Under the pieces are notes generated by a model, which made no database searches, was not told the DNA's origin, and saw only the letters and a program-made list of their open reading frames with translations. This document shows positions 20,616 through 24,676 of a DNA stretch of 48,411 nucleotides, piece after piece. The stretch covers positions 1 to 48,411 of the forward strand of contig JAICKC010000012.1 of assembly GCA_025928155.1 (NCBI GenBank), read 5' to 3'. Numbering within the stretch: position 1 is the first letter of the stretch; each line of letters opens with the position of its first letter. A program made the translations under genes and the position numbers. Source of the stretch: Candidatus Saccharimonadota bacterium (lineage in GTDB: Bacteria > Patescibacteriota > Saccharimonadia > Saccharimonadales > UBA4665).

Positions 20616-20897
20616 ATGAAAGTACTTGTGCTTTATCGGCCGGATTCGGAGTTCTCGCGTCGGGTCGAGGAATTTATGCGTGACCTGAAGCAAGTGCACA
20701 ACCTGGACGACCGTACGCTCAAAGTGCTGAGTTACGACAGCCGCGAAGGTTCGTCTACGGCAAGTATGTACGACATCATGAGCCAGCCGGCTATCCTTAT
20801 TACCAACGACGACGGCAGTTATGTAAAACATTGGGAAGGTAGCGAGTTGCCTTTGCAGGATGAAATAGCAAGCTACATCTACTCCTACGATACTTGA
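20616..20897 (+). CDS. Small thioredoxin-fold-like hypothetical protein
   Basis: 93 residues. The pattern MKVLVLYRPDSEFSRRVEEF, then LKVLSYDSREG, SQPAILITNDDGSYVKHWEG and a C-terminal helix suggests a beta-alpha-beta glutaredoxin or thioredoxin-like fold. There is no CxxC, so no redox activity is expected. The cis-Pro position SQPAIL matches the fold. Function is unknown. It is a single-gene unit with its own -10 box, 76 nt after the class II RNR, so a link to nucleotide reduction is possible but unproven. Confidence 0.65.
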   Translation: MKVLVLYRPDSEFSRRVEEFMRDLKQVHNLDDRTLKVLSYDSREGSSTASMYDIMSQPAILITNDDGSYVKHWEGSELPLQDEIASYIYSYDT

Positions 20898-20933
20898 GGG
20901 CTTTCGTAATATACATATTTTGTGGAAGCCCTG

Positions 20934-20962
20934 TTGAAAAATAGTCGTGTAGGCGGTACCAT
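20934..20962 (+). promoter_or_regulatory. Promoter of the T-box-ileS transcript
   Basis: TTGAAA (20934-20939), exact 17-bp spacer, TACCAT (20957-20962). Transcription would start near 20969 and give a ~270-nt leader, the usual size for a T-box unit. Two perfect TATAAT sequences at 21042 and 21053 are part of a hairpin and lack a -35, but cannot be excluded. Confidence 0.5.
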
Positions 20963-20968
20963 AAAAGG

Positions 20969-21239
20969 GAAATGCATTGTAGTGTTTTTGACACTACGTG
21001 AGCGGCTATCGACCGCGAAGCAGTGGGAAGAACCGGGCTATTATAATGAAATTATAATACGCACCTCAGTAAAACTCGCCGGGACGCCCGTAATAGCGTT
21101 GAACTAAGTGCCGAAAAGAGTGACCTAAAATCACTTCTTTTGGAATCTGGATGGTACCGTCCGCTTTAAAATCAGCGGATTCCAGAGTCTGAAAGAGGTG
21201 ATTTTATTTGTAAACGCAGCGGTAAAGGAAGGATAAATC
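20969..21239 (+). promoter_or_regulatory. T-box riboswitch leader of CYTH-ileS
   Basis: The core is a canonical T-box antiterminator/antisequestrator. Helix A1 is TCTGGA (21146-21151) with TCCAGA (21181-21186). The 7-nt bulge is TGGTACC (21152-21158). Helix A2 is TCCGC (21160-21164) with GCGGA (21175-21179). TGGT would pair with the ACCA end of uncharged tRNA, which suits tRNA-Ile (A73). Upstream stems include GTAGTGT/ACACTAC, GCGG/CCGC, and a hairpin with AGTA on one side (about 21061-21111) that may be a short Stem I. The specifier codon could not be assigned. A second stem, AAAATCACTTCTTT (21127-21140) with AAAGAGGTGATTTT (21192-21205), may act in switching. No clear terminator is seen, so control may be translational. 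Confidence 0.72.
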
Positions 21240-21776
21240 ATGGTAGAACTCGAACGCGAAAAAACCTATCTGCTTAAAGAGCTGCCGGCCGAGTTGGCCA
21301 GTTGTCGGTCTGAACTCATTAGCGATGCTTATATACCTGCTAGCGCGCTGCATCCGATTTTGCGTCTGCGCCACCGGGGCGATCGCTATGAGCTCACTAA
21401 AAAGGAGCAGCTTGACGACGCCGATGCCTCGCGCCAAACCGAACATACTATTCAGCTGACACCTGAAGAGGCTGTTGCATTCGAGGTGGTAAAAGCTAAG
21501 CGGGCGACCAAACGCCGTTACTACTGCACAGTGGACGGTCATCCAGCGGAGCTGGATCTGTACCAGGACGACCTCGTTGGCCTGGTGGTGATAGACTTTG
21601 AATTTGAGAGCGACGAGTCCATGGATGCGCTTGAGATACCGGACATATGCCTCGCCGACGTTACCCAGGATGAGGCGATAGCGGGAGGCGTGCTGGCGGG
21701 CAAAACCTATGCCGACCTGGCGCCGATACTAGAGAAATATCACTACGAACCACTATATTTAGAGGAGGCAGTATGA
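21240..21776 (+). CDS. CYTH-domain (triphosphate tunnel) protein
   Basis: 178 residues of the CYTH/triphosphate tunnel fold. It starts VELEREKTYLLKELP, a variant of the ExExK strand, and has ILRLRHRGDRYELTKK (basic substrate-binding strands). RRYYCTVDGHPAELDLYQDD and GLVVIDFEFESDE supply the acidic metal ligands, and CLADVTQDEAIAGGVLAGKTY ends the domain. Members act on triphosphates such as inorganic triphosphate or thiamine triphosphate; the substrate here is unknown. It lies between the T-box and ileS and overlaps ileS by 4 nt (ATGA), so it shares the tRNA-responsive control. GGAAGGA precedes the ATG. Confidence 0.85.
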   Translation: MVELEREKTYLLKELPAELASCRSELISDAYIPASALHPILRLRHRGDRYELTKKEQLDDADASRQTEHTIQLTPEEAVAFEVVKAKRATKRRYYCTVDGHPAELDLYQDDLVGLVVIDFEFESDESMDALEIPDICLADVTQDEAIAGGVLAGKTYADLAPILEKYHYEPLYLEEAV

Positions 21777-24676
21777 AATTCCAGGCAGGGCAACGCCGCA
21801 AGGCTATCGAGTATGAAAAGGCGCTTGTAAAGCAGTGGAAGCAAAACAAAACTTTTGAGAAGTCGATTGACCAGCGGCCAAAAGACGGTGGCTACGTATT
21901 CTACGACGGCCCGCCGTTCATCACCGGCGTGCCGCACCACGGGACGCTGCTGACGAGCGTAGTAAAAGACGCAGTGCCGCGCTACTGGACCATGCGCGGC
22001 ACGCGGGTGGAACGCCTGTGGGGCTGGGATTGTCACGGTCTGCCGGCGGAAGTGTTTACCGAAAAGAAGCTGGGCGTGCAAGACCGGCGTGACATCGGTA
22101 CCAAGATCAGCCTGGAGGATTACATCGTAACCTGTCGGGACAACATGGTGCAGACTGGTAATCTGTGGGAAGACACTATCGATCGGATCGGTCGCTGGGT
22201 CGACTTCAAAGGCGCCTACAAAACCATGGATAAGAACTACATGGAAAGCGTATGGTGGGCATTTAAGCGCTTGTACGACGAGGGCAAGATTTACGAGGGC
22301 GAAAGGGTATTGCTGTATTGCACGCGCGACGCGACACCGCTCAGCAAGGCCGAAGTCGCCATGGATAATAGCTATCAGGATGACACCGACCCGTCCATCT
22401 ACCTCAAGTTTAAGCTGAAAGACCGCGACGCTTCGCTGCTGGCATGGACTACCGTGCCATGGACCGCGCTCGCAAATACCGCGCTCGCTGTTGATAAGGA
22501 TGCTGATTATAGCGAGGTAGAGTTAGAAGACGGCACTCACGTAGTCTTGGCAACAGAACTGCTGGAGCACGTATTGCAAGACGAGAAACGCAAGGCGGTG
22601 CCCTTTACGTTGGTCAATTCGCTCAAGGGCAGCGAATTAGTTGGCACACGCTATGAGCCATTCTTTAAGGATTATGGTCCTAAAGCGCACGTTGTACATC
22701 ATGCCGATTTTGTGAGCATGGAAGAGGGAACTGGTGTGGTGTCTATCGCGCCAGCATATGGCGAGGAGGATTTTTTACTCGCCAAGAGCGAAGATTTCCC
22801 GGTGGTCTCGGTGGTGGATGACTCCGGCCTGCTCATTGATAGTGACTGGAAAGACCAGCAAATATGGGACGCCAACAAGCAAATTGCCAAAACCTGGCTT
22901 GCCGAAGGCAAGGCTTGGAAGATTGAATACGTTACGCACAGCTATCCGCATTGCTATCGGTGTGGCACCAAGCTTATTTACCGCGCTCATCCCAGCTGGT
23001 TTATGGACATCAACGGCCAGCGGCAGGTCATGCTCGAACAAAACGAGTCGGTGACTTGGCGGCCGGAGCACATCAAACACGGCCGGTCGCAAAAGACCAT
23101 TGAAACTGCTCCGGACTGGAACCTTAGCCGCGACCGCTTTTGGGCCACGGCCATGCCGGTTTGGAAGGGCACGGACAAAGACGGCAAAGAGCAGACTATC
23201 GTAGTCGGCAGCTACGAGGAGCTTAAAACGCTAAGCGGCGTCGAGCTGGATGACTACCATCGTCCGTGGGTTGATAGCATCGAATTTGATACAGATAGTG
23301 TTCACTATACACGCATTGATAAGGTGATGGATTGCTGGTTTGAGAGCGGCAGCATGCCGTTTGCGCAGTTCCATTATCCGTTCGAGAACAAGGAAAAGTT
23401 CGAGACTAATTTCCCCGGCGATTTCATTGTGGAATATATCCCACAGGTGCGTGCCTGGTTCTACTACATGAACGCGGTCAATGTAGGGCTGTTCGGCAAG
23501 GTGCCGTTTAAGACCGCACTGGCGCATGGCACACTGGCGGGTAACGACGGCCGCAAAATGAGCAAGCAGTACGGTAACTACACAGACCCGAATGAGCTGA
23601 TGGATGAATACAGCGCCGATGCTCTGCGCCTTTTATTCCTGACTTCACCTCTCCTGAATGGCGAAGATTTTAGCCTGAAAGACAAAGACGTCCAGGACGT
23701 GCAGCGTAAGCTAGCGATGATATGGAACATGTACGATTTCTTCACTTTATATGCCTCCGTGGATGGCTGGGAGTGGAACGGTTCGATAGATGACCCATCG
23801 GCAGATTTGACTAATCCGCTTGATATCTGGGTGTTGTCGAAACTTCATCAATTACAAATCCACATCAGTAGCCACATGGATATCTATGACATTCCGGGCG
23901 CACTTGATCCGGTATTCGCGTTTGTGGACGACGCCAGCAACTGGTACGTGCGCCGCAGCCGCCGCCGCTTCTGGAAATCGGGCGACGATGCTGACAAAAA
24001 CGATGCCTATCGTACGCTACACTATCTGCTGGTACGCCTCAGTATGATCCTGGCGCCCTTTGTGCCATTCTTGGCCGAGGAGCTGTTCCAGAAACTAACC
24101 GGCGGCGAGACGGGCGAGAGCGTGCACTTGCTGGACTGGCCGGAAGATGGCGCAGTGGACACAGCTGGATTGCAAAAAATGGCCTTCGTGCGTGAGGTAA
24201 TCAACGAAGGCCTGTCACAGCGTGCCGCCGTGGGCATAAAAGTGCGTCAGCCGCTGCAAGAAGTCTTCATCAAAGGTGCGCCGACCTTCTTTGATGATCC
24301 CGAAGAGGCGTATGTGGCAATCCTGCAAGAAGAGCTGAATGTGAAGGGTGTATTTGCTAATACCGCCAAAGTCAAGCAAGTGGAGGTAACACTCAATACG
24401 GAGCTGACCCCAGAGCTCAAGCGCGAGGGCATCATGCGCGAGCTCGTGCGCACCGTCCAGGCAGCTCGCAAGGCTGCTGGCTTGAACGTAGATGACCGGA
24501 TAGTACTGGTTATAGAGGCGGAAGACGAGGAAGTGCAGCAAGCTGTAACAGAGCATTCTAGTACAATCCGGTCGGAAACTCTGGCTACGAGCCTAAACGA
24601 AGGCCGGGTCGACAGCTATGCTGCCGAGGCCACAGTTGACGATTACGCGGTGACCATACGTCTAGCGAGAGCGTAG
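21773..24676 (+). CDS. ileS: Isoleucyl-tRNA synthetase
   Basis: 967 residues, class I. HIGH-type motif PHHGT is at residues 54-58 after YDGPPFITGV, and WDCHGLP follows, a signature of Ile/Val/Leu synthetases. The CP1 editing domain lies about 190-400. The KMSKS-type motif is KMSKQ at 595-599, and the tRNA-binding anticodon domain fills the C-terminus. The WDCHGLPAE and KMSKQYGNY forms fit the IleS2 (eukaryote-like) type, often linked with mupirocin tolerance; that last point is inference. Translational coupling with the CYTH gene is implied by the ATGA overlap. No C-terminal zinc finger is seen. Confidence 0.95.
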   Translation: MKFQAGQRRKAIEYEKALVKQWKQNKTFEKSIDQRPKDGGYVFYDGPPFITGVPHHGTLLTSVVKDAVPRYWTMRGTRVERLWGWDCHGLPAEVFTEKKLGVQDRRDIGTKISLEDYIVTCRDNMVQTGNLWEDTIDRIGRWVDFKGAYKTMDKNYMESVWWAFKRLYDEGKIYEGERVLLYCTRDATPLSKAEVAMDNSYQDDTDPSIYLKFKLKDRDASLLAWTTVPWTALANTALAVDKDADYSEVELEDGTHVVLATELLEHVLQDEKRKAVPFTLVNSLKGSELVGTRYEPFFKDYGPKAHVVHHADFVSMEEGTGVVSIAPAYGEEDFLLAKSEDFPVVSVVDDSGLLIDSDWKDQQIWDANKQIAKTWLAEGKAWKIEYVTHSYPHCYRCGTKLIYRAHPSWFMDINGQRQVMLEQNESVTWRPEHIKHGRSQKTIETAPDWNLSRDRFWATAMPVWKGTDKDGKEQTIVVGSYEELKTLSGVELDDYHRPWVDSIEFDTDSVHYTRIDKVMDCWFESGSMPFAQFHYPFENKEKFETNFPGDFIVEYIPQVRAWFYYMNAVNVGLFGKVPFKTALAHGTLAGNDGRKMSKQYGNYTDPNELMDEYSADALRLLFLTSPLLNGEDFSLKDKDVQDVQRKLAMIWNMYDFFTLYASVDGWEWNGSIDDPSADLTNPLDIWVLSKLHQLQIHISSHMDIYDIPGALDPVFAFVDDASNWYVRRSRRRFWKSGDDADKNDAYRTLHYLLVRLSMILAPFVPFLAEELFQKLTGGETGESVHLLDWPEDGAVDTAGLQKMAFVREVINEGLSQRAAVGIKVRQPLQEVFIKGAPTFFDDPEEAYVAILQEELNVKGVFANTAKVKQVEVTLNTELTPELKREGIMRELVRTVQAARKAAGLNVDDRIVLVIEAEDEEVQQAVTEHSSTIRSETLATSLNEGRVDSYAAEATVDDYAVTIRLARA

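Follow-up and report, generated by a model that had tools for sequence, protein, structure and literature searches.

The stretch between a thioredoxin-like gene (20616-20897; weak assignment) and a CYTH–ileS operon carries, at 20973-21209, a leader that comparative sequence analysis confirms as a real isoleucine-specific T-box. Sequence and fold models further suggest, with a probability of roughly three in four, that this T-box has an ultrashort Stem I and would control transcription of the CYTH–ileS operon through an exchange of Stem III. Positions refer to the window, that is, the whole 48,411-nucleotide stretch of DNA analysed; the features are collected in Table 1.

Locus and operon organization

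The first-pass annotation had described an operon encoding IleRS downstream of the leader, and the synthetase is confirmed, with named relatives mostly from Candidatus Saccharibacteria or Saccharimonadales. The CYTH assignment of the operon's first gene keeps a weak match of the product (E 1e-5) to PDB 2fbl/3typ, which we take to be CYTH/TTM proteins, but Pfam and NCBIfam searches with the same product returned nothing. The gene that separates leader and ileS is a CYTH gene in the source genus (L022), and elsewhere it is GNAT-like, cupin-like or missing, names other than CYTH having been assigned by eye. Since the intervening gene varies in this way, the CYTH gene is probably incidental to the switch. 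The arrangement had been called notable: the CYTH gene does lie between leader and ileS in the window, but the element itself is widespread, and in most relatives the T-box stands directly 5′ of ileS with no CYTH gene.

The proposed promoter with a 17-bp spacer exists as a 9/12 match, but shuffled sequences give 0.6 ± 1.1 sites as good, so that it does not rise above chance; transcription from it would start just before the base of Stem I. An inverted repeat, AGGGCTTTC/GGAAGCCCT (20897-20932), lies in the gap between the thioredoxin-like gene and the leader, just 5′ of this possible promoter, and has no T-run.

Table 1. Features of the leader and its operon in the window
Feature	Position	Strand	Basis
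Possible sigma-70-type promoter, TTGAAA-17-TACCAT	20934..20962	+	9/12 matches; not above chance
Stem I domain	20973..21022	+	Sequence; base TGC (20973-20975) with GCA (21020-21022)
Inserted hairpin in Stem I, GTAGTG/CACTAC	20979-20984 / 20992-20997	+	Sequence
GA/GA flanking upper Stem I, K-turn-like	21000-21001 / 21017-21018	+	Sequence
Upper Stem I, GCGG-CUAUCGA-CCGC, ultrashort, specifier in apical loop	21002..21016	+	4/4 pairs with compensatory changes
Specifier codon AUC (isoleucine)	21008..21010	+	Perfect match to anticodon GAU; ATC in 66/66 out-of-seed ileS-labelled matches
Stem II, GTGGG/CTCGC	21023-21027 / 21075-21079	+	5 pairs, all with compensatory changes
Stem II S-turn motif, AAGAA + AGTAAAA	21028-21032 / 21068-21074	+	Alignment
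Stem IIA, CGGG/CCCG, start of IIA/B element	21080..21090	+	Consensus fold, covariation
Stem III hairpin (ON state)	21111..21143	+	Constrained fold
Purine linker GGAA, Stem III to A1	21142..21145	+	GGAA/AGAA conserved in alignment
Antiterminator helix A1	21146-21151 / 21181-21186	+	Sequence, constrained fold, covariation
Antiterminator bulge TGGTACC, 7 nt	21152-21158	+	Sequence, covariance model
Antiterminator helix A2, G-U pair at base	21159-21165 / 21174-21180	+	Sequence, constrained fold, covariation
Competing OFF stem, takes Stem III 3′ strand, encloses A1/A2	21126-21144 / 21188-21206	+	Fold energies, conserved complementarity
U-tract TTTTATTT after OFF stem	21202..21209	+	U-tract conserved among relatives
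Probable ribosome-binding site AAGGAAGG, outside OFF stem	21225..21232	+	Sequence, predicted folds
CYTH-like protein, first gene of operon	21240..21776	+	ORF; weak PDB match; same-position homologue in L022
ileS, isoleucyl-tRNA synthetase	21773..24676	+	IleRS confirmed; start overlaps CYTH stop

Identification of the T-box

The first-pass annotation had looked to the Rfam covariance models for confirmation. RF00230 aligns with the window leader over its full length but weakly, at 19.9 bits against a gathering cut-off of 93, which is a curator's threshold rather than a biological criterion; at this cut-off the Rfam scan reports no T-box in the window. The same model detects the leader in a dozen relatives (E 1e-4 to 1e-9), mostly directly before ileS, and its cut-off is exceeded by 0 of 60 relatives. 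RF00230 is probably dominated by long-Stem-I members. A UGGNACC motif with a paired A1 occurs within 1 kb upstream of 45 of 80 named ileS loci.

The relatives' own model gives the match that Rfam does not. This covariance model, R1, has as its seed a MAFFT alignment of 41 Saccharibacterial ileS leaders, the window leader included, picked by A1 pairing and an AUC hairpin. It scores the window leader at 107.5 bits (E 7e-23), the sole such match in the 1.3-Mb genome; because the seed contains the window leader itself, this score is not independent, but the matches in other genomes are. When the 41 leaders are folded by RNAalifold with no structure given, Stem I, Stem II, Stem IIA, A1 and A2 are recovered with compensatory double changes in 22 of 25 pairs. 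The covariation score is 0.737, compared with 0.260 for shuffled and at most 0.132 for slid alignments, and 96.4% of the pairing cells are filled by pairs (72.3% shuffled, 31-44% slid). Since the seed was selected on A1 and the AUC hairpin, a selection that applies equally to the covariation of upper Stem I, the helices that lend unbiased support are Stem II and A2, all of whose pairs show double changes. The antiterminator core as originally described, with A1, the 7-nt bulge and A2, is thus upheld far beyond chance, and the expected conservation of bulge and helices in relatives' ileS leaders is borne out. That the resemblance arose by chance around a hairpin, a reading favoured by the RF00230 score below its cut-off, is extremely improbable in view of the covariation, the distribution of R1 matches and the uniform AUC specifiers.

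Architecture of the leader

The upper Stem I helix consists of 4 bp and a 7-nt loop, which places it among the ultrashort Stems I of class II, and a long Stem I with an elbow-binding double T-loop motif is absent from the window leader. The GA/GA flanks of the upper helix, found in strict form in 21 of 57 leaders, are suggestive of a K-turn. The extra hairpin at 20979-20997 occupies the site of the Stem I K-turn bulge, and L013 has a different hairpin there. The leader alignment conserves both of the helices Stem II and IIA, together with the GAA...AGUA motif, and the IIA/B pseudoknot is putative.

A 61-codon frame at 20922-21107 reads NEIIIRT, and its translation, with stalling at the Ile-Ile-Ile run, could in principle set the switch as in a peptide-coded attenuator. 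This very improbable candidate was rejected: the Ile run sits in a Stem II insertion that is missing from most aligned relatives, and a leader peptide leaves the bulge, S-turn and specifier of the T-box unexplained.

Specifier codon and discriminator base

The specifier reads an isoleucine codon, as an ileS T-box was expected to do. The window has AUC as its apical-loop codon, as do all 66 out-of-seed R1 matches filed as ileS, a filing made by default; when 71 matches were checked, 59 had an IleRS-type motif downstream, and the other 12 include eight known valS, aspS or lysS loci and one (L277) that is ileS by NCBIfam. The window bulge UGGU fits A73 of tRNA-Ile in 20 relatives, one of them in the source genus. 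Exceptions are four of 57 ileS leaders (L049, L094 and L011/L056), which carry UGGC or UGGA for UGGU.

Leaders of other specificities show the same relation between bulge and tRNA. Thr leaders combine ACC with UGGA before thrS, and the three tRNA-Thr of the source genome have U73; Asp leaders combine GAC with UGGC before a non-discriminating AspRS, and the tRNA-Asp of the source genome has G73; the two His leaders combine CAC with UGGG before hisG, and the tRNA-His of the source genome has C73. Val leaders have GUC before valS, although in one of them (L278) GTC is visible in the sequence and the R1 alignment misplaces the specifier. In the Lys leader L279, AAG is present but outside the usual specifier loop position; L278 and L279 are given no weight in the argument. 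Because the variable base of UGGN tracks the discriminator base for all four letters, tRNA recognition best explains these sequences.

The Asp-type T-boxes L198, L200 and L203 come from another family of the class, and the His-type ones from two Saccharibacteria (L010 in G019, L197 in G016). Outside the window, the source genome has a second T-box (L001; G000:C8:49026-49143) before thrS, with ACC, UGGA and U73 in its own tRNA-Thr; a strong hairpin and TTTTT follow it, and its RF00230 match is also weak. Searches with RF00005, ARAGORN and one pattern recovered no tRNA-Ile(GAU) of the source genome among 47 tRNA matches, in an assembly rated 98% complete. In relatives this tRNA mostly adjoins tRNA-Ala, and the window begins at a 23S end, so the missing gene may belong to an rRNA spacer absent from the assembly.

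A predicted transcription switch based on Stem III

A U-tract follows within 40 nt of the leader in 52 of 58 cases, whereas letter shuffles give 6.1 and control blocks 3 of 62; that of the window is interrupted by one A (UUUUAUUU). The strand preceding the U-tract has its partner in the Stem III region in 29 of the 52 leaders and in the A1 3′ strand in 8, the remaining 15 falling into neither class at the thresholds used. Complementarity between the Stem III region and this strand reaches 7.72 over the 52 unselected leaders versus 5.40 with partners swapped (0/5000), 9.16 versus 5.81 for ten divergent leaders alone and 7.04 versus 5.14 for 61 out-of-seed leaders, the swapping leaving the relatedness of the leaders in place. 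For the window, the calculated energy of the OFF fold (-41.0 kcal/mol) is 13 kcal/mol more stable than that of the ON fold (-28.0 kcal/mol), while Stem III remains favoured in the growing transcript until transcription has reached about 21190. Because in this lineage the Stem III 3′ strand is the partner of the strand before the U-tract, the terminator would enclose an intact antiterminator, an architecture excluded by the loop limit of a simple terminator scan, which found no terminator in the window. The competing stems and the U-tract fit a default-off transcription switch that the tRNA would have to hold open through Stem III.

Two other switches can be weighed against these data. In the textbook T-box switch the A1 3′ strand itself forms the terminator, as it does in eight leaders of gut-type relatives (for example, L054, L079 and L080) and, judged by eye, in the thrS leader of the source genome; such a switch is quite unlikely in the window, where pairing to the strand preceding the U-tract scores 5 for the A1 3′ strand and 16.2 for the Stem III strand. 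Translational control, as in actinobacterial ileS T-boxes, would have the TACCG of the bulge region pair with CGGTA (21220-21224) and hide the ribosome-binding site when uncharged tRNA is lacking. This 5-nt pairing, on which the first-pass annotation had based its hint of translational control, exists in the window, and translational T-boxes are otherwise the ones that typically have an ultrashort Stem I (PMC7583486). The complement (CGGTA/GGTAC/CGGTG), however, occurs near the ileS start in only 1 of 45 relatives, the predicted fold leaves the ribosome-binding site unpaired and the OFF state does not hide it, and the conserved elements are instead the U-tracts and the competing stem. The hint is not sustained, and we regard translational control as unlikely.

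Under the preferred transcriptional reading, we infer tRNA binding, charge sensing and termination as follows. The anticodon of uncharged tRNA-Ile(GAU) would pair with AUC in the loop of Stem I, where the Stem II S-turn and IIA/B would hold it, and the ACCA end of the tRNA would pair with the bulge UGGU. The bound tRNA would make a single locked unit of Stem III, the purine linker and A1/A2, and RNA polymerase would read on. With tRNA-Ile charged or absent, the Stem III 3′ strand would leave its partner and pair with 21188-21206, and the resulting long stem before the U-tract would end transcription. A1/A2 could form in both states, Stem III being the switching part.

Distribution

R1 matches occur in 140 of 195 genomes of the Saccharimonadia class and in 111 of 287 genomes drawn from the phylum, 87 of these 111 belonging to other classes; the E-values are rough. 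All 21 other-class loci inspected lie before IleRS, ValRS or LysRS genes (12 typed with NCBIfam). The T-box is no isolated oddity: most genomes of the class have it, and it is scattered over the phylum. The claim of an ileS T-box in a candidate-phyla genome is supported by the relatives' model, covariation and the specifier.

No report of T-boxes in Saccharibacteria, Patescibacteria, the candidate phyla radiation or Parcubacteria was found in a literature search that covered subscription journals thinly. TBDB applied its class II model to Actinobacteria and to class I matches with a truncated Stem I (PMC7778990), a scope that would explain the candidate-phyla gap. Some of these sequences may already be listed without comment in Rfam or TBDB tables, and R1 provides a means to find members missed by the Rfam cut-off. 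Candidate-phyla bacteria have very reduced genomes, are host-dependent and probably import amino acids, so that a tRNA-charge sensor on their synthetases offers a testable handle on how they track supply.

Relation to known T-box classes

As a member of the T-box family the window leader is ordinary. On balance, we favour the view that candidate-phyla bacteria use a distinct T-box class, in which an ultrashort Stem I comes together with a transcription terminator and the switch exchanges Stem III while A1/A2 persists in both states; no precedent for this combination, or for phylum-wide occurrence, was found in the literature. If true, such a class would mean that a short Stem I need not go with translational control and that a T-box can terminate without dismantling its antiterminator; the reviewed rule by which transcriptional T-boxes generally depend on a long Stem I (PMC7583486) would then have to be revised. 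In a 2008 survey nearly all T-boxes belonged to Firmicutes, the others being a few in Actinobacteria, Chloroflexi, Deinococcus and two Proteobacteria, and the survey did not decide between a late origin and loss elsewhere (PMC2494555), a question on which wide presence in candidate phyla bears directly.

With the class II ileS T-boxes of Actinobacteria, the window leader shares, in a comparison of described features, the ultrashort Stem I, apical-loop specifier, Stem II with an S-turn motif, Stem III and UGGN bulge, together with a putative IIA/B (PMC10651847, PMC7583486), and the position upstream of ileS. It differs from them in phylum and in having a U-tract and terminator-like competing stem downstream in place of a hidden ribosome-binding site. 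With the class I T-boxes of Firmicutes (RF00230) it shares the core antiterminator, the G-U basal pair of A2 (present in the window and in roughly half of the leaders), a terminator-type hairpin with a downstream U-tract (in the window with its one A) and, as predicted, the logic of tRNA-dependent antitermination. However, class I members generally need a long Stem I with an elbow-binding motif, absent here, and they form the terminator with the 3′ strands of A1/A2 (PMC7583486), whereas that of the window would take Stem III and leave A1/A2 intact.
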